This document shows, one piece after another, positions 2,915 through 14,928 of a stretch of 33,702 nucleotides of DNA; positions within the stretch are counted from its first letter, which is position 1; each line of letters starts with the position of its first letter. This stretch comes from Hydrogenophilaceae bacterium. GTDB taxonomy: Bacteria > Pseudomonadota > Gammaproteobacteria > Burkholderiales > Thiobacillaceae. The DNA lies in assembly GCA_013389025.1 (NCBI GenBank), contig JACAED010000001.1, positions 1 through 33,702 of the forward strand, written 5' to 3'. A program made the position numbers and the translations under genes. The notes under the pieces are model-generated. The model did no database searches and had not been told where the DNA came from. It saw only the letters and a program-made list of their open reading frames with translations.

Positions 2915-3010
2915 GTTTTCGAATCGGACATGACGCTGCAAGCGCGGCATCCGATTTGAAAACAACCTGTTTGGTGAATCAAAACCGCCCCGTCGGACTG
3001 ACCAGGGCGG
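2915..3010 (-). promoter_or_regulatory. Two stem-loops in the dsrC-dsrM gap, one terminator/attenuator-like
   Basis: gttttcgaatcgga(2915-2928)/tccgatttgaaaac(2950-2963), 13/14 paired; ccgccc(2985-2990)/gggcgg(3005-3010), followed by TTTTGATT when read on minus. Confidence 0.6.
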
Positions 3011-3029
3011 CCTGACAAATCAAAACCGC

Positions 3030-3365
3030 TCAGATGCAGCCAGTAGGCTTCGGCAGGCCAGCGATCTTACAAGCCTGCTTGGCGGGGCCGTAGGGGAACA
3101 ACTCGTACAGGTACTTGTTGTTGCCTTTTTCCGGGCCGAGCTTCTTGCCGATGGCCTTGGTCAGAACGCGAACAGCGGGAGCGATCTGGTATTCGGCATA
3201 GTACTCACGCAGGAAGTTGACGACTTCCCAGTGGCTGTCGGTCAGGTCGACCTTTTCTTCGACCGCCATGTACTTGGCGATGTCTTCGTTCCACTGCGAC
3301 AGGTCAACCAGATAGCCTTCCTCGTCCACTTCCACTTCTTTACCGGCGATATTCACCATGGGCAT
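3030..3365 (-). CDS. dsrC: DsrC, sulfur-carrier protein
   Basis: 111 aa from MPMVNIAGKEVEVDEEGYL; C-terminus ACKIAGLPKPTGCI has both conserved cysteines separated by 10 residues. Confidence 0.97.
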   Translation of the reverse strand: MPMVNIAGKEVEVDEEGYLVDLSQWNEDIAKYMAVEEKVDLTDSHWEVVNFLREYYAEYQIAPAVRVLTKAIGKKLGPEKGNNKYLYELFPYGPAKQACKIAGLPKPTGCI

Positions 3366-3388
3366 AGCAATACTCCTTTGATTAAAAG

Positions 3389-3688
3389 TTACAGCCAAGA
3401 CTGACAGTTGCTGTGCTCTGCGACCAGATCCACAAAACCGCCGTAATCCACGACATTGACTCCGTCCAGCACGCGCCCGGCCATGCCGCGCGCCGCCAGA
3501 TCAGGACCGAGTGCGTAAATCTTGAGGTCAGCCGCTGCTGCCTGGATTTTCGCCGCCGCCGCATTGCCGTTCGTCGCCGCGTACACCGCGTCTTCGATCA
3601 GCAATACAGCAGAACCTTTGGTGGCCATGCGCAGGCAGCTTTCCAGCGAACTGCGCTCAGCGGCCGATTTGTTCACAATATGCAGCAT
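3389..3688 (-). CDS. dsrH: DsrH, subunit of DsrEFH sulfurtransferase
   Basis: 99 aa MLHIVNKSAAERSSLESCLRMATKGSAVLLIEDAVYA; TusB/DsrH-like; follows dsrEF. Confidence 0.93.
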   Translation of the reverse strand: MLHIVNKSAAERSSLESCLRMATKGSAVLLIEDAVYAATNGNAAAAKIQAAAADLKIYALGPDLAARGMAGRVLDGVNVVDYGGFVDLVAEHSNCQSWL

Positions 3689-3698
3689 GTCTGTCCCC

Positions 3699-4094
3699 TT
3701 AGAAGCTGATCACGACGTCTTGCTCGGCCATGAGATTTGCCATCTCCGGCACGGACAACACCGTCACATCCACAATCAGGTCATCTTCGGTCAGACCACG
3801 TGCATCCAGCGACGCCTGATCGACATACAGCTTCTCGATGTCGTAGCCCTCCAGCGCACGGTAGGTCTTGGAGAAGTCCTTGACCTCGATGCCCTTGCTG
3901 TCGATGCCCTTCATCAACTGGAAGACGCCGTCATCGGTGAAGACCATGCTCACATCCTGATCGAAAGCAGCCGTAATCAGAACCACTTCCAGACCTTCCA
4001 GCGCATACACGGTACCGTGCGGCGCCTTGCGGTTCAGGAACATGAATTTCTTGACTATGCCGGAGCCGTCGTCCATTTCGTCCATATCGCTCAT
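3699..4094 (-). CDS. dsrF: DsrF, subunit of DsrEFH sulfurtransferase
   Basis: 131 aa, TusC/DsrF-like; position between dsrE and dsrH. Confidence 0.92.
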   Translation of the reverse strand: MSDMDEMDDGSGIVKKFMFLNRKAPHGTVYALEGLEVVLITAAFDQDVSMVFTDDGVFQLMKGIDSKGIEVKDFSKTYRALEGYDIEKLYVDQASLDARGLTEDDLIVDVTVLSVPEMANLMAEQDVVISF

Positions 4095-4478: not shown

Positions 4479-4562
4479 GGCTAGCTCAAACTCCGAAAAA
4501 ATCCAGACATTGTTTACGCACTTCTTTCCGTCGCGGCCATGCCGCGACGGGGGCAACACATC

Positions 4563-5633
4563 TTAAAAGCGGATGTGCGCAGAAGCGTTCAGGTTGGCAC
4601 GACCGCCACGCCAGTTATCGATGTGATACTTGGTGAAGGGCAAGCCGGTCTTCTCGAAGAATGCGGGCCAGCCAATGCGGTCGATCCAGTCGATCATGCG
4701 CTCCCACGGCTTGCCGTCTTCCTTGTAGGTGGCGAGGATCTTCTTGACCACTTCGCCCACTTCCGGCCAACGCGGGGCGTTGTTCGGCAGGCCGGCGGCG
4801 ACCAGCTTGTGGAAGGTCGGCTTGGAACGGGCGTTGGAGTTCTTGCCTCCCACCCAGATCGCAATCTTGGAGTGCTCGGGATCGTTGATCTGCATCGGCG
4901 GGCAGGGCGGGAAGCAGGCGCCGCAGCAAATGCACTTCTTCTCGTCGACTTCCAGCGAGGGCTTGCCGTTCACCAAGGCGGGACGGATCGCCGCCACCGG
5001 GCAGCGGGCCACGACGGAGGGACGCTCGCAGACGTTGGCGACCAGGTCGTGGTTGATCTTGGGCGGCTTGGTGTGCTGGATGATGATGGCGATGTCGGCC
5101 TGGCCGCCGCAGTTGATTTCGCAGCAGGAGGTGGACAGCTTGACGCGGTTGGGCATCTCGCACTTGACGAAGTCGTCGTACAGCTCGTCCATCAGCGCCT
5201 TGACCACGCCGGAAGCGTCGGTGCCGGGAATGTCGCAGTGCAGCCAGCCCTGGGTGTGGGCGATCATGGACACGGAGTTGGCGGTGCCGCCCACGGGATA
5301 ACCCGCATCGTTCAGCGCCTTGATCAGGGGCTCGACCTTGGCTTCGTCAGCCACCATGTACTCAATATTGGAGCGTGCGGTAAAACGCACGTAGCCATCG
5401 CCGTATTTATCAGCAATATCGGACAGCTCGCGGATGGTATAGGTATCCATCTGGCGCTGGGTACCGGCCTTGACGGTCCAGATCGCATCGCCGCTCTCGG
5501 CACGGTGATACAGAACGCCAGGTTTCGGGTGGGAGTGGAATACCCACTTGCCGTAGTTTTTCTTCATGACCGGATGCATGTAGGGCATCGGGTCGGGTGC
5601 GCCGCTTTCGATCGGGGGACGCAGTTCAGCCAT
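4563..5633 (-). CDS. dsrB: DsrB, dissimilatory sulfite reductase beta subunit (oxidative type inferred from context)
   Basis: 356 aa; siroheme/FeS region STSCCEINCGGQADIAII and ferredoxin motif CICCGACFPPCPPM. Confidence 0.97.
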   Translation of the reverse strand: MAELRPPIESGAPDPMPYMHPVMKKNYGKWVFHSHPKPGVLYHRAESGDAIWTVKAGTQRQMDTYTIRELSDIADKYGDGYVRFTARSNIEYMVADEAKVEPLIKALNDAGYPVGGTANSVSMIAHTQGWLHCDIPGTDASGVVKALMDELYDDFVKCEMPNRVKLSTSCCEINCGGQADIAIIIQHTKPPKINHDLVANVCERPSVVARCPVAAIRPALVNGKPSLEVDEKKCICCGACFPPCPPMQINDPEHSKIAIWVGGKNSNARSKPTFHKLVAAGLPNNAPRWPEVGEVVKKILATYKEDGKPWERMIDWIDRIGWPAFFEKTGLPFTKYHIDNWRGGRANLNASAHIRF

Positions 5634-5710
5634 GTCAGTAACCTCCAGTGTTTAAATCCTGCTGCATGGGCAAATCCTTGCCCATGCAGCCCTTAACTAC
5701 AAACCGCCGA

Positions 5711-7003
5711 TCAGGCGCTCTTGCGCTCTTCCCACTTCTCTGCCTCTTCGTCCCACCCGTCCATGCGGACATAGGGGTTGGAACGCGGTTGGGAGATCAT
5801 GTTGGGATCGATTTCCAGGCCGATGCCTTCCAGGAAGTTGACCAGGCCGATGCGGTCGATCATCTCGCCGGTACGCTCGTGCTCCAGCGCGTTTTCGGCA
5901 AAGAAATCGAGAATGTTGCGAGCCAGCTCGCCGAGTTTCTCGAAGTCCTCGTCGGATTCGAGTTTCATGAACGGAACCACCACGGTACCCATGGTTGCGC
6001 CAATTTTCAGCACGCCCTTGCCACCGACCAGAATGGTCACGCCCTTGTCCTTGCCGGGCAGCAGGCCGCCGGGGATGACGTTCAGGCAGTGCATGCAGCG
6101 CACGCAATTGTGGTTATCGATCTCCAGGCAATCCTCGGCATCGATCTTCGCCGCCACGACACCATCCGCCTTGCTCTCGCTGCCGATCTTCTTCAGCGAC
6201 AGCGCCTTGGTCGGGCACATGTTGATGACCTGATTGACCAGTTCGCCCTTGCCATTCTTGGCGACCCACGCCTGAATCAGTTCTTCGTTCACCTGCATGT
6301 TGTCGCGCCAGGTGCCCAGTGTGGCCATATCGGAACGCTGGATGGCATTCACACAGTCGTTGCCGCAACCGGAAAACTTGAACTTGAATTTGTAGGGCAG
6401 CGCCGGGCGGTGCATGTCGTCAAGGTTGTTGTTGATGACCGTGCGCAATGCGCGCGCTTCGTCATAACAGGACATTTCGCAGCGAGCCGCGCCGACGCAG
6501 GACATGGAGGTGCGCAGGGCAGGGCCGGCACCGCCGAGGTCAAAGCCGTTTTCATTCAATTCATCGAAAGCAGCCTGTACATTCTCGGTCTTGATGCCCT
6601 GGAACATGATGTCGCCGGACTGGCCGTGGAAAGCGATCAGGCCGGAGCCGTGCTTTTCCCACACGTCGCACATCCAGCGCAGGGTCTTGGTGTCGTAATG
6701 CATGCCAGCGGGTGGCTGGATGCGCAGGGTATGGAATTCAGCCGCATCAGGGTACAGGGGCTTCTCGTTTTCATCCTTGAGTTCGGTGAAACGGGGAATC
6801 ACACCGCCACCATAGCCGAACACACCAACCGTGCCGCCCTTCCAGTAACCCTTCTTGGTCTTGTAGGACGCTTCCAGCTGACCCAGCAGGTCAACCATCA
6901 TGTCATTGTCCTTGGCCAGGCGCTTGAGACCGGTTACAAAGCTTGGCCACGGGCCGCTTTCCAGCTGGTCGAGCATGGGCGTATCGTACATTTTCTTTGC
7001 CAT
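5711..7003 (-). CDS. dsrA: DsrA, dissimilatory sulfite reductase alpha subunit (oxidative type inferred from context)
   Basis: 430 aa; TSMSCVGAARCEMSCYD, KFSGCGNDCVNA and CVRCMHCLNVIPGGL motifs; good SD (ggagagttaac-ATG on minus). Confidence 0.97.
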   Translation of the reverse strand: MAKKMYDTPMLDQLESGPWPSFVTGLKRLAKDNDMMVDLLGQLEASYKTKKGYWKGGTVGVFGYGGGVIPRFTELKDENEKPLYPDAAEFHTLRIQPPAGMHYDTKTLRWMCDVWEKHGSGLIAFHGQSGDIMFQGIKTENVQAAFDELNENGFDLGGAGPALRTSMSCVGAARCEMSCYDEARALRTVINNNLDDMHRPALPYKFKFKFSGCGNDCVNAIQRSDMATLGTWRDNMQVNEELIQAWVAKNGKGELVNQVINMCPTKALSLKKIGSESKADGVVAAKIDAEDCLEIDNHNCVRCMHCLNVIPGGLLPGKDKGVTILVGGKGVLKIGATMGTVVVPFMKLESDEDFEKLGELARNILDFFAENALEHERTGEMIDRIGLVNFLEGIGLEIDPNMISQPRSNPYVRMDGWDEEAEKWEERKSA

Positions 7004-7428
7004 GTTAACTCTCCGTTTCAGAAGTTCAGATAGATAAAACTCACATGTGAATTTGCGATCATCAAGCAGACCGGATACCGGAATTCAGTCGGGATCAACG
7101 ACCGGATCGCCCCAAGGCAGCTACCCATATAACCGCATCGGTAATGGTAATCCCGCCAATTCAAAGGACACCATCATCAGGATGGGTTAATAAAACCTAC
7201 CCATTTGGGTTATATGCAACTTCCTTTTCCGGTTGTTTGAAGATGTTTTGATAACTGTCACACTCCGGAAAACGAAAATATTAGCACTCTCGATTATTGA
7301 ATTCTAGGGTGGACATAACAATATTGAATGGGTATCCCCTACAAGAAAGGGAGCCAACCATTGTAAAGATGTCGTATCAGATTGTTTTGTAATACTTTTG
7401 CATTGGACTTTATCAGAGCATCATCAAC
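7004..7428. promoter_or_regulatory. Divergent intergenic region between dsrA and the 82-aa ORF, with four ACCCAT/ATGGGT boxes
   Basis: Exact ACCCAT at 7123-7128 and 7199-7204; ATGGGT at 7182-7187 and 7328-7333; partial TGGGT at 7206-7210 forming ACCCA-TT-TGGGT (7199-7210). Confidence 0.5.
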
Positions 7429-7677
7429 ATGGATGAAACCGGTATTTCCAGTCTGGACAAATTCACTGCCTCACCTTACCGGCAGGAAATCGAACTCCAG
7501 CATGTCGAGCATCGTGCGGATTACGTGACGATGCGAGTGCGCATCCGTGAACTCAAGCGCTTTACCATTTTTGACATCGACCCGATTACCGCGAAGCGCT
7601 GGGGACAAGCCATGCTGGAATGGGCAAGCCGGCACGAGGCCAAATCAGGTGCCGGCGACGAAGGAGAACCAAAATAG
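7429..7677 (+). CDS. Small conserved-looking protein of unknown function, first gene of dsr-divergent operon
   Basis: 82 aa MDETGISSLDKFTASPYRQEIELQHVEHRADYVTMRVRIRELKRFTIFDIDPITAKRWGQAMLEWA; ATG start, codes up to the overlap with the next ORF. Confidence 0.7.
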   Translation: MDETGISSLDKFTASPYRQEIELQHVEHRADYVTMRVRIRELKRFTIFDIDPITAKRWGQAMLEWASRHEAKSGAGDEGEPK

Positions 7678-8330
7678 GCTGGTTATACGAAGACCACGCG
7701 GAGGCACGGAGTATTGATGTTTCCGCTGTGTCGGATATCCAATTCGAACTCAAGGGCGATGCCCTGCCTTTGGATCACGCCTGGCTAATCTACCAGGGCC
7801 TGATTGAAATCGCCCCATGGATCACTGAAGAAGAGGGCCTGGGCATCCATCCGATTCAGGGCGCCGACACAGGTGGCGGCGAGATGATTTTGAATCGACG
7901 GGCCAAGCTGGTCATTCGCAGTCTCGCCCGGAATCTGAGCGATTTGGCTCAACTCAGCGGGAAATCCTTCAAGGTGGGCAAACATACCCTTACCCTGGGT
8001 GCCAGCAAGATCAAGCATCTTGCTCAGCACACCCCCCTTTATGCCCATACTGTCTGCACGGGCAGTGAAGACGAGAAATCGTTTACCCGCGACATCATTG
8101 GCCAGTTGGATGAGATGAACATCAGTACACGATTCATTTGCGGCAGGCCCCAAAAATTCTTCGATGGTGAGAAAATGGAAACGGGTTACAGCCTGATGCT
8201 GCATGGTCTGCCAGTCGAACATGCCATACGCGTTCAACAGCAAGGCCTGGGATTGCATCGCAAACTGGGATGCGGAATATTCATTCCCCACAAATCCATC
8301 ACCGCGGTCGGCGCGATCGACGCGGTTTAA
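7674..8330 (+). CDS. Orphan Cas6-like RAMP protein (Cas6/Cmx6, I-MYXAN-like family)
   Basis: Core FELKGDALPLDHAWLIYQGLIEIAPWITEEEGLGIHPIQG...RLVIRSLAR-type strand pattern...GLPVEHAIRVQQQGLGLHRKLGCGIFIPHKSI; Gly-rich RAMP loop GLGLHRKLGCG (GxGx5GxG). Start codon uncertain: ATA 7674 behind AAGGAG, GTG 7728, or ATG 7620. Confidence 0.8.
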   Translation: MGWLYEDHAEARSIDVSAVSDIQFELKGDALPLDHAWLIYQGLIEIAPWITEEEGLGIHPIQGADTGGGEMILNRRAKLVIRSLARNLSDLAQLSGKSFKVGKHTLTLGASKIKHLAQHTPLYAHTVCTGSEDEKSFTRDIIGQLDEMNISTRFICGRPQKFFDGEKMETGYSLMLHGLPVEHAIRVQQQGLGLHRKLGCGIFIPHKSITAVGAIDAV

Positions 8331-8368: not shown

Positions 8369-8701
8369 ATGGGAGTCATGTACAACGGCGAAGAACTGGA
8401 AACCGGGGAAGAGGATTTTCTGCTGGAACCCGTCTACGACGACGAAATCTGCCCCATCCTCGCCGAAAAGGAAAACATCACGCTGACGGAAGATCACTGG
8501 TTCGTGATCCGCTGGCTACGCGATCAATACAAAGCCGAGGGTCAGACGCCCAACTTCCGCAACATGATCAAGGCGCTGGAGGAAGAGGACAGCAGCAAGG
8601 ACTGGAAAAGTCACCTATACAAGCTGTTCCCCAATCAACCCGCTCGCCAGGCAGTTCGGATCGCCGGTCTGCCCAAACCCTATGGAAAGGGTGGGTATTG
8701 A
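8369..8701 (+). CDS. DsrC/TusE-family paralogue lacking both C-terminal cysteines (RspA-like)
   Basis: 110 aa; ENITLTEDHWFVIRWLRDQYKAEGQTPNFRNMIKALEEEDSSKDWKSHLYKLFPNQPARQAVRIAGLPKPYGKGGY aligns with DsrC C-terminal half, but the two Cys are Val and Lys. SD aaaggagag upstream. Confidence 0.88.
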   Translation: MGVMYNGEELETGEEDFLLEPVYDDEICPILAEKENITLTEDHWFVIRWLRDQYKAEGQTPNFRNMIKALEEEDSSKDWKSHLYKLFPNQPARQAVRIAGLPKPYGKGGY

Positions 8702-8762: not shown

Positions 8763-9614
8763 ATGTCATTCACAAGTCTTATTTCTACCCAGGAACTGGC
8801 TGCACAGCTGGGCAATCCCAACTGGGTCGTCTTCGACTGCCGGTTCACGTTGACCGACCCGGAAGGTGGACGCCGGGCCTATGAAGAAGGTCATATTCCC
8901 GGCGCGCGATATGTGCATCTGGAGGAAGACCTTTCCGCACCCATTGGAGCCCACACCGGTCGCCATCCGCTGCCCGATCCGAAAATGCTGACGGATAAAC
9001 TCTGCCGCTGGGGTGTGGGCATCAATCGCCAGGTGGTGGTATATGACGATAGCTATGGCTCCATGGCCGCGCGCATGTGGTGGCTGCTGCGCTGGCTGGG
9101 ACACCCCGATGTCGCGTTGCTTGATGGTGGCCATCCAAAATGGCTGCGTGAAAAGCGTCCCATCGCCAAGGAAGCGCCGGTCGATGCCCATAGCGCCTCC
9201 TGTGCATGCCTGCCCGAGCGCAGTTCATGGGTTTCGGCGGAAGAAGTCGCGGAAGCCCTGACCGAGAAAAAGACCCGCCTGCTGGACGCCCGTCCGGATC
9301 GGCGTTTCTCAGGAGAATACGAACCTTTCAATCCGGTTGCCGGCCATGTGCCAGGTGCCATCAATTGGCCTTACGAAGAAAATCTGGATATCGATGGCAC
9401 CTTCCTGCCACCTGAAGCGCTCAGGGAACAATATCAAGCCCTGCTGAAAGGTGCTGCACCTCATCAGGTTATCCACATGTGCGGCTCGGGTGTCACCGCC
9501 TGCCACAACATACTGGCCATGGAGGCAGCCGGCCTTTCAGGTTCGCGCCTTTACCCCGGCTCATGGAGCGAATGGATCACGGATCCATCCCGCCCTGTGG
9601 CCACTGGAGAATAA
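8763..9614 (+). CDS. Sulfurtransferase (two-rhodanese-domain, SseA/3-mercaptopyruvate sulfurtransferase-like)
   Basis: 283 aa; N-terminal VVFDCRFTLTDPEGGRRAYEEGHIPGARYVHLEEDLS and catalytic loop CGSGVTA followed by LYPGSWSEW. Confidence 0.92.
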   Translation: MSFTSLISTQELAAQLGNPNWVVFDCRFTLTDPEGGRRAYEEGHIPGARYVHLEEDLSAPIGAHTGRHPLPDPKMLTDKLCRWGVGINRQVVVYDDSYGSMAARMWWLLRWLGHPDVALLDGGHPKWLREKRPIAKEAPVDAHSASCACLPERSSWVSAEEVAEALTEKKTRLLDARPDRRFSGEYEPFNPVAGHVPGAINWPYEENLDIDGTFLPPEALREQYQALLKGAAPHQVIHMCGSGVTACHNILAMEAAGLSGSRLYPGSWSEWITDPSRPVATGE

Positions 9615-9615
9615 A

Positions 9616-10191
9616 ATGAGCGGCATACGCGTCAAAACCAACTGGTTCCGCGAGGGCGACGATCCGCGCGGTCCGCAGGAACAGGCTTCGGCCTTTGCCA
9701 TCACGCTCTGGAAGCTGGCCGACAAGGCAGTCATCAACCTCTCCAATGCGGACTACGACATCATTACCCCGCAACGCGGCTTCACCCTGCTGGCAGAACT
9801 CATCGCCTACATGGTGCAGATCATCGACCGCATGGTTCATGGCCGCATCGACGACGAGGAACGTGCCGAACTCATTGGCGCGCTGGGTGTGAAAATGGCC
9901 GAAATACTGGAATCCAACATCCATGACGTCATGGGCGACCATGATTATCCGTATGTCGAAGCCATTCTCGACAAGTTCAACCGGCGCTGGAACGATTACG
10001 CCTCGTTTGAATTCAATCCGGAGAACCCCAATTTCCAGGTCAAACGCTATCTGGCCAACTGCATCCGCGAAGTCATGGAAGCGCGCGACCAGTCCTGGAT
10101 TGCCGACCAGATCATCGAAATCGAGGCACCTGCCTTTATCGGCCCCATCAAGAAACAGGTCGAGGCTTTTTACCCGAAGCACTGCGGCTGA
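9616..10191 (+). CDS. Protein of unknown function, predicted mostly helical
   Basis: 191 aa from ATG 9616 (MSGIRVKTNWFREGDDPRGPQEQASAF...), overlaps no other gene and abuts neighbours in operon. Confidence 0.75.
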   Translation: MSGIRVKTNWFREGDDPRGPQEQASAFAITLWKLADKAVINLSNADYDIITPQRGFTLLAELIAYMVQIIDRMVHGRIDDEERAELIGALGVKMAEILESNIHDVMGDHDYPYVEAILDKFNRRWNDYASFEFNPENPNFQVKRYLANCIREVMEARDQSWIADQIIEIEAPAFIGPIKKQVEAFYPKHCG

Positions 10192-11073
10192 ATGATTTCC
10201 TCCGACAGTCCCTTCCACCCGGATAACCGCGCTTATAAAAACTGGCGTGATGAAAAGCTGCGTAACTACCCGCAACGCGTGGAAGACCTGCTGGTAGAAG
10301 TAAATAATCCTAAATCCCTCTCCCCCGCCGAACATGCCGCACTGCTTGCGCGTTGCCGCAAGACCAATATGGCCGTGTATGTCGGCCCCGATCTGGGCGA
10401 GGACAAGGATATCCCGCGCCTGATGGGAAAACAGTTCGGCTTGGAACGGCTGGATGCCAACCTGATGGCCGATGAAGACGACATCACCACGCTGACCGTT
10501 GCCGAAAGTGGCGAGAAAAAAGGCGAATTCATCCCCTACACCGACCGCCCCATCCGCTGGCATACCGATGGTTACTATAATGCGCCCGGCCGCTGGATAC
10601 TGGGCATGATGCTGCACTGCGCCGCGCCCGCCGCGGAAGGGGGCGTCAATGATCTGATGGACCATGAAATCCTTTACCTGCTGCTGCGTGACGAGAATCC
10701 CGGTCATATCCGCGCACTCATGCAGAATGATGCCATGTCAATTCCGCCGCGCATGGACGAGAAAGGCATTGCGCGCGACACAGAAACCGGGCCGGTTTTT
10801 TCGACATTGCCCGGCGGTCAACTGCACATGCGGTATACAGCACGCACCCGATCGATTGCATGGAAGCAGGATGAAGCGACCCAAGCCGCTGTCGCCGCCA
10901 TCGAGAGGTTCTTGTCGCAGGACCTGCCCTGGATATTCCGCCATCGCATGGAAGCGGGGACTGGCCTGATCTGCAACAATGTGTTGCATGACCGCAGCGG
11001 TTTTGTCGACTCGCCGGAACACAAACGCGTGATGTACCGGGCACGGTATTACGATCGCATCAGCAATACCTGA
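10192..11073 (+). CDS. TauD/TfdA-family Fe(II)/2-oxoglutarate-dependent dioxygenase
   Basis: 293 aa; HxD motif in IRWHTDGYYN and distal His in CNNVLHDRSGF; ATG immediately follows previous TGA. Confidence 0.82.
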   Translation: MISSDSPFHPDNRAYKNWRDEKLRNYPQRVEDLLVEVNNPKSLSPAEHAALLARCRKTNMAVYVGPDLGEDKDIPRLMGKQFGLERLDANLMADEDDITTLTVAESGEKKGEFIPYTDRPIRWHTDGYYNAPGRWILGMMLHCAAPAAEGGVNDLMDHEILYLLLRDENPGHIRALMQNDAMSIPPRMDEKGIARDTETGPVFSTLPGGQLHMRYTARTRSIAWKQDEATQAAVAAIERFLSQDLPWIFRHRMEAGTGLICNNVLHDRSGFVDSPEHKRVMYRARYYDRISNT

Positions 11074-14451: not shown

Positions 14452-14693
14452 ATCTCAACCCAAAAAGAGAATAAGTTGACCGGTTTCTTGCAACATCCAT
14501 ACCTTTTCCGGACAATTATTAATTGTTATATAAATCATGATGTTATTACGCATGCCGTGGACAATATCCTCTCGAACGCGTCAGTTTTCCGTCAGGAATA
14601 TTGCCTAATGTCGAATTCACGTTCGTCGACTGCCGGCTCAAGAGGCCCTAAAATGCTGCCTTCGCCCGTCAGGGCAGAACTTAAAAGTCGCTT

Positions 14694-14730
14694 GGAGGCG
14701 TGGCAGAGTGGTTGAATGCACCGGTCTTGG
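14694..14730 (+). pseudogene. Truncated 5' half of a tRNA-Ser gene
   Basis: ggaggcgtggcagagtggttgaatgcaccggtcttgg matches the 5' 37 nt of the intact tRNA-Ser 145 bp downstream at 35/37 positions; no 3' half (no T-arm or acceptor complement) follows. Confidence 0.75.
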
Positions 14731-14838: not shown

Positions 14839-14928
14839 GGAAGCGTGGCAGAGTGGTTGAATGCACCGGTCTTGAAAACCGGCAATGACGCAAGTCATTC
14901 GTGAGTTCGAATCTCACCGCTTCCGCCA
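14839..14928 (+). tRNA. tRNA-Ser(TGA), CCA encoded
   Basis: Acceptor ggaagcg/cgcttcc, anticodon stem-loop ccggtcttgaaaaccgg with TGA, long variable arm, GTTCGAATC T-arm, CCA. Confidence 0.95.

Follow-up and report, generated by a model that had tools for sequence, protein, structure and literature searches.

A Cas6-like protein independent of CRISPR is linked to dsrA, with a possible role in RNA-based control of the reverse dsr locus

Why should a Cas6-like protein be encoded beside the genes for dissimilatory sulfite reductase? To our knowledge, Cas6 is known solely as a crRNA-processing enzyme. The gene in question lies on a contig of a Hydrogenophilaceae bacterium, of which we analysed a stretch of 33,702 nucleotides (33.7 kb; hereafter, the window). 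An initial annotation, made from the sequence alone, had read the open reading frame at 7620-8330 as a Cas6 of the Cmx6 type standing beside a dsr cluster without CRISPR, and had proposed that the fold was recruited to bind or cleave non-CRISPR RNA, perhaps hairpins in dsr-locus transcripts.

We confirmed the open reading frame (+ strand) and compared its product with known families. The protein covers the whole of the Pfam Cas6 profile PF09559 (E 2.3e-55, 188 bits against a cut-off of 26.7) and scores 142.4 bits with the NCBIfam model TIGR02807 (cas6_cmx6; cut-off 98.85); PADLOC Cas6 models match it with E values down to 4.5e-55. A phmmer search of the PDB returned a single strong match, 8fcj, the Cas6 of a type I-B CAST Cascade (E 2e-19). 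The AlphaFold2 model of the 218-aa protein (69-row alignment, pLDDT 88.5, pTM 0.84) has the double ferredoxin-like (RAMP) fold of Cas6; in Foldseek it matched the CAST type I-B Cas6 with TM scores of 0.82-0.84 (0.82 for chain 8fcj_B) at 1.6-1.7 Å, and PDB ranks 1-40 were nearly all Cas6 or Cas6-containing chains. All three segments picked out by the initial annotation are found in the reading frame, namely GDALPLDHAWLIYQGL, GLGIHPIQG and the glycine-rich loop GLGLHRKLGCG, which fits GxGx5GxG (GhGxxxxxGhG) and in which G191, G193, G199 and G201 are invariant. Both the profile search and the structure prediction thus bear out the assignment to Cmx6-type Cas6. The nearest solved structure, the CAST type I-B Cas6 (8fcj, 8fcu), is 27% identical and has GIHPI in common with the protein; the CAST Cas6, however, belongs to a crRNA-guided Cascade, and no such machinery is encoded near the Cas6-like gene.

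The start at 7620 had to be abandoned. Residues 1-18 of the listed frame are unconserved and are the DUF6967 gene read in another frame, and the conserved protein begins at ATA 7674, a codon that overlaps the DUF6967 stop (TAG, 7675-7677) and follows a strong Shine-Dalgarno sequence (Table 1). At the homologous position we found ATA in 24 loci, ATC in 14, and ATG, GTG or TTG in 37, these last belonging to Thiobacillus proper and others. In 12 loci there is no ATG, GTG, TTG or CTG between the in-frame stop and the ATA or ATC codon. Third-position, synonymous changes prevail after this codon (211 against 78 and 50 in the near group), whereas the stretch upstream of it shows no third-position bias. 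Since the bias appears only after ATA/ATC and, in those 12 loci, no alternative start exists upstream, initiation at AUA/AUC is the best reading, and the gene most likely starts at ATA 7674; initiation at these codons is itself unusual.

Table 1. Features of the window discussed in the text (positions are those of the window; residue numbers are those of the 218-aa protein)
Feature	Position	Strand	Evidence and remarks
Canonical dsrC	3030-3398	-	tail KPTGCI, both cysteines present
dsrB	4563-5633	-	TIGR02066, 1.3e-154
dsrA	5711-7003	-	TIGR02064, 2.4e-156; divergent from the operon of the Cas6-like gene
Perfect palindrome TCACATGTGA	7041-7050		immediately 5' of dsrA; no variation among the eight sequences compared
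Inverted repeat TACCCAnnTGGGTTA (TACCCA-TT-TGGGTTA)	7198-7212		middle of the divergent promoter region; kept in near relatives
DUF6967 (PF22295), 82 aa	7429-7677	+	Pfam, 3e-26
Shine-Dalgarno AAGGAG	7661-7666	+	7 nt ahead of the ATA start
Cas6-like (Cmx6-type), 218 aa	7674-8330	+	start codon ATA; PF09559, TIGR02807, AlphaFold2/Foldseek
Cas6-like signature	W49, H59, R76, R82 and C-terminal GxGxxRxxGCGIFIPHKS		sequence conservation
DsrC-family paralog	8369-8701	+	PF04358, 1.4e-30; TIGR03342; tail GKGGY, no C-terminal cysteines
Rhodanese / mercaptopyruvate sulfurtransferase-like	8763-9614	+	PF00581, 1.8e-29; in 75 of 81 loci
Conserved protein without Pfam match	9451-10191	+	in 64 of 81 loci and the majority of gamma loci; the real start probably lies more internally
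TauD-family dioxygenase	10192-11073	+	PF02668, 1.7e-16; also in the gamma cluster

As can be seen from Table 1, the Cas6-like gene is part of a cluster divergent from dsrBA that runs from DUF6967 through the DsrC paralog, the rhodanese and the protein without a Pfam match to the TauD-family dioxygenase. Curated models identify dsrA, dsrB and a DsrC-family gene, and the placement beside a dsr cluster was therefore correct. The order dsrC..dsrB-dsrA followed, in the opposite direction, by (DUF6967)-Cas6-DsrC paralog-rhodanese is near-constant in 80 loci of other species, and the gene order of the cluster is also kept in gamma-proteobacterial loci. The palindrome TCACATGTGA, of which 0.05 copies are expected by chance in the window, and the inverted repeat TACCCAnnTGGGTTA are candidate regulator or operator sites in the divergent dsrA promoter region.

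Because the 80 loci had been fetched by similarity, we also analysed genome samples drawn irrespective of the Cas6-like gene, one from the order (n=399) and one from the class (n=274). In the order sample the family occurs in 80 genomes, dsrA in 87 and both in 80, with none of the 312 dsrA-less genomes carrying the family (Fisher p 1.7e-76, inflated by relatedness); all 80 Cas6-like genes are divergent from dsrA, 79 of them at 416-2082 bp. The class sample gave the family in 91 genomes, dsrA in 94 and both in 87 (p 1.9e-57, likewise inflated), and 65 of 66 same-contig pairs were divergent and within 4.5 kb. Taken together, with the shared genome counted out, 166 of 170 family-positive genomes have dsrA and 166 of 180 dsrA genomes carry the family (14 do not), while 144 of the 145 pairs found on one contig are divergent and within 5 kb. 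Neither the occurrence of the gene across many bacterial families nor the common divergent orientation rests on the p-values. Of the four family-positive genomes without dsrA, three are drafts in many fragments; in the remaining one (G629) the Cas6-like gene lies less than 1.5 kb from a contig end. The linkage to dsr is thus conserved in well over a hundred genomes, far more strongly than could be known from a single sequence, though linkage by itself is no proof of function. No PF09559 match was found in a broad phylum sample of 199 other genomes, and no homologue in the phage records searched. In one single-contig genome of 1.4 Mb (G611, locus L196) the Cas6-like gene is placed 41 kb from dsrA, outside the dsr cluster; a Cas1 search of this genome found none.

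We then considered the relation of the gene to CRISPR. A search of the 33.7 kb window for CRISPR-like repeats gave none; what it did pick up was an incomplete duplication of a tRNA and two weak pairs. An Rfam scan of the window found tRNAs only. The duplication is a 37-nt near-copy of a tRNA 5' end (14693-14729), 145 bp upstream of the intact tRNA (about 14839-14925), and suggests a tRNA-end duplication or insertion scar. The description "without CRISPR" holds for the window but not for the genome. A type I-C locus is present on other contigs of the source genome, which is 75% complete, one contig carrying cas4-cas1-cas2 with two hairpin repeats and another cas3, cas5c and cas8c (the names of cas3 and cas8c were read from translations). 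Three findings had been named in advance as evidence against recruitment. Two of them, no match to a RAMP fold and no conserved linkage to dsr, are contradicted by the results above. The third, a CRISPR locus elsewhere whose repeats the protein processes, is countered only in part: a CRISPR locus exists, but in type I-C systems it is Cas5 that processes the repeats, and Cas1 is often absent where the Cas6-like gene is present. Indeed, when CRISPR presence was judged by searches for the Cas1 and Cas5 families, good genomes of the window's family had the Cas6-like gene in 57 of 59 cases, as a rule in one copy, with Cas1 patchy (35 of 59). A genome of the window's genus that is 99% complete (G112) has the Cas6-like gene and no Cas1 candidate. 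Among near-complete gamma genomes with the Cas6-like gene, 17 of 40 are without Cas1, including three of only 1.0-1.1 Mb (G542, G644 and G756) and several single-contig ones. The Cas6-like gene is not encoded with cas genes or an array, its conserved neighbours in the 80 loci being dsr genes, and its presence across genomes follows dsrA rather than CRISPR-Cas. In its setting and occurrence the protein is independent of CRISPR.

The dsr-linked proteins also differ in sequence from their CRISPR-linked relatives. The type I-MYXAN Cas6 (Cmx6) of cyanobacterial CRISPR loci, for example that of Gloeothece pP742402, encoded beside cas3 and cas8a1, is about 28% identical to the protein; the likeness is that of one family above the curated cut-offs, extends over the whole length, and includes the glycine-rich loop with R82, R196 and C200, residues common to nearly all dsr-linked and CRISPR-linked proteins. 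Unlike the I-MYXAN gene, the Cas6-like gene has no cas genes or arrays nearby, sits on a separate branch, and is near-universal, single copy and bound to dsrA; its product has W49, R76, H59 and PHK, which are specific to dsr-linked proteins. W49, R76 and the C-terminal PHK (H206 and K207) are near-invariant in dsr-linked proteins and absent from CRISPR-linked ones (R76 from all but one). H59, which, judging from the order of the fold, we take to be the place where other Cas6 proteins carry the catalytic histidine, is kept in 63 of the 68 dsr-linked proteins compared, whereas six of seven CRISPR-linked proteins lack it. In the larger beta set, position 59 is Q in 29 of 81 proteins, mostly from Thiobacillus proper, and the H comes one residue later; a case for RNA binding can thus be made more readily than one for cleavage.

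We built a tree with 97 rows, of which only seven are CRISPR-linked, CAST or cyanobacterial plasmid Cas6 and whose root is unfixed; in it the dsr-linked proteins and these seven lie on opposite sides of one branch (100/98). The identity matrices of the Cas6-like protein and dsrA correlate (Mantel r 0.82, 0/999). One genome of the window's order (L201) carries a gamma-type dsrA (84% identical to that of locus L187) together with a gamma-type Cas6 (54.5% to that of L187), which points to joint transfer of the two genes. In a Gloeobacter morelensis plasmid (pGMOR1, L180) a Cmx6 gene at 2974-3765 is not beside cas3 and stands among genes for PAPS-reductase-family and cupin proteins, possibly another non-CRISPR setting of Cas6.

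The closest companion of the gene matches PF04358 and TIGR03342 and so resembles the DsrC/TusE/DsvC family; it differs in that both C-terminal cysteines, by which sulfur-transferring DsrC and TusE are recognized, are replaced and the tail reads KGGY. None of the 75 beta relatives has a cysteine in the last 12 residues, and every gamma case seen beside it has the KGGY tail and no C-terminal cysteines. A KGGY-tailed gene is present in 50 of 58 short loci, and a few dsr genomes, including three related ones (L218-L220), have it but no Cas6-like gene; the pairing is strong but not strict. The paralog resembles the cysteine-less DsrC group that goes by the name RspA in the literature. The A. vinosum counterpart of the KGGY companion may be Alvin_1508, a DsrC paralog whose expression declines along with that of dsr (PMC11267869). 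A precedent for a regulator of the DsrC family is offered by the DsrC of A. vinosum, which, according to work cited in PMC5944118, binds to DNA in the region upstream of the dsr genes.

DUF6967 accompanies the gene in the beta branch but, outside it, in just a few gamma relatives, most gamma loci being without it. Its AlphaFold2 model (pLDDT 88.6) is a four-stranded sheet with a helix (beta4-alpha), a predicted topology similar to that of PUR-alpha and PC4-like single-strand nucleic-acid-binding domains. The top nine Foldseek matches are Pur-alpha repeats, with probabilities of 0.93-1.00 but E values of 0.2-1, and there is no sequence similarity to these domains; the model thus weakly resembles PUR-type domains, which is a lead and not membership.

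Which RNA might such proteins act on? Very strong hairpins are present between dsrA and dsrB (5661-5690, - strand), between dsrB and dsrE (4525-4555, - strand) and in the gap between dsrC and dsrM (about 2980). Their position is kept in most lineages while their sequence is wholly changed, and they may serve to set mRNA stability segment by segment along the dsr operon. We rejected them as a demonstrated substrate of the Cas6-like protein: their sequences have nothing in common, dsr loci that lack the Cas6-like gene have them too, and they are missing in reduced genomes that retain it. The suggestion that the protein acts on hairpins in dsr-locus transcripts is thus not supported, as these hairpins neither mark Cas6-bearing loci specifically nor occur in all of them. 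The spacer between dsrA and DUF6967 showed no convincing covariation indicative of conserved RNA structure (term only -0.15), and its conserved pieces look like DNA operator palindromes.

That a Cas6 fold has been recruited outside CRISPR, as originally proposed, is well founded on the fold, the conserved dsr linkage and the CRISPR independence. Beyond this we infer RNA as the ligand, a partnership with the DsrC paralog and a regulatory role, and we lean slightly towards the view that Cas6 was recruited to the reverse-dsr locus as an RNA-binding, post-transcriptional regulator of dsr, together with the KGGY paralog and DUF6967. A Cmx6-type Cas6 would have become detached from CRISPR and been taken up early, once as far as sampled, by the reverse dissimilatory sulfite reductase locus of beta- and gamma-proteobacterial sulfur oxidisers. 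There it would bind a specific RNA hairpin, and perhaps cleave RNA, in concert with the cysteine-less paralog and, in the beta branch, with DUF6967 as a further partner. The KGGY paralog may be a non-reacting mimic of DsrC that reports the occupancy of DsrAB or DsrEFH, and dsr expression would in this way be adjusted post-transcriptionally by the status of the sulfur relay. This explanation is weakened by the lack of an RNA element, the Q at position 59 in Thiobacillus proper, the non-significant E values of DUF6967 and its absence from most gamma loci, the occasional occurrence of the KGGY paralog alone, and the 14 dsrA genomes without the Cas6-like gene. Some of these observations would suit a protein that retains the Cas6 fold but has given up RNA as its ligand and serves the Dsr proteins as an adaptor or assembly factor, with the KGGY paralog as its partner, seated in DsrAB or DsrEFH without reacting. 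The closest companion of the gene is, after all, a DsrC-family protein and not an RNA gene; W49 and PHK could make up a surface for protein contacts; no RNA element goes along with the gene; and position 59 is not strictly kept. We nevertheless consider an adaptor unlikely, as conservation of the glycine-rich loop, R196, R82 and C200 equals that seen in CRISPR-linked Cas6, the full fold appears from the model to be retained at 1.7 Å, and the neighbouring DUF6967 has a predicted nucleic-acid-binding look.

The proteins of the DsrC/TusE group belong to the 2-thiouridine relay, and the Cas6-like protein might instead respond to the sulfur supply by directing or curbing the thiolation of tRNA or by cleaving tRNA. 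TusE and DsrC form one family (TIGR03342), and DsrEFH is homologous to TusBCD (PMC5728499). The paired DsrC paralog, however, is without the sulfur-carrying cysteines, and the tie of the gene is to dsr, with no tus or mnmA among the conserved neighbours, making a tRNA role quite improbable. Still harder to sustain is a residual CRISPR role, in which the protein would process pre-crRNA in trans for arrays elsewhere in the genome. Databases do label the protein CRISPR-associated, and the source genome offers a locus with hairpin repeats; yet this locus (Cas5c, Cas3, Cas8c, Cas4-1-2) is of type I-C, and such loci are without cas6 (PMC5944118). Together with the absence of Cas1 from many genomes that retain the gene (G112 and the gamma genomes counted above) and its tracking of dsrA, this leaves a CRISPR role very improbable and already largely refuted.

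Extending the reading of the protein as an RNA-binding dsr regulator, we propose tentatively, at somewhat less than even chances, that the Cas6 fold has become part of the core of sulfur oxidation and is inherited vertically. With the cysteine-less DsrC as decoy or sensor and the PUR-like protein, it would form a sulfur-responsive module that controls reverse dsr by binding or cutting one specific RNA of the cell, its own translation being held low in one branch by the conserved AUA/AUC start. The protein family is already known; its dsr setting and likely role are new. In the open-access literature we found no description of a Cas6 tied to dsr or DsrC, nor of DUF6967, although this absence is not proof. 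TIGR02807 scores a Thiobacillus denitrificans member at 221 bits, so that current annotation labels such proteins, probably proteins of sulfur metabolism, as "CRISPR-associated" in many genomes. The dsr-linked Cas6-like protein provides a concrete protein, partner and phenotype for asking about post-transcriptional regulation of dsr. It would seem that a component of CRISPR immunity has settled permanently into sulfur metabolism, probably as an RNA-binding protein: its clade tracks dsrA over two large proteobacterial groups, even in genomes of 1.0-1.1 Mb, as would a CRISPR RNA tool taken over for energy metabolism.
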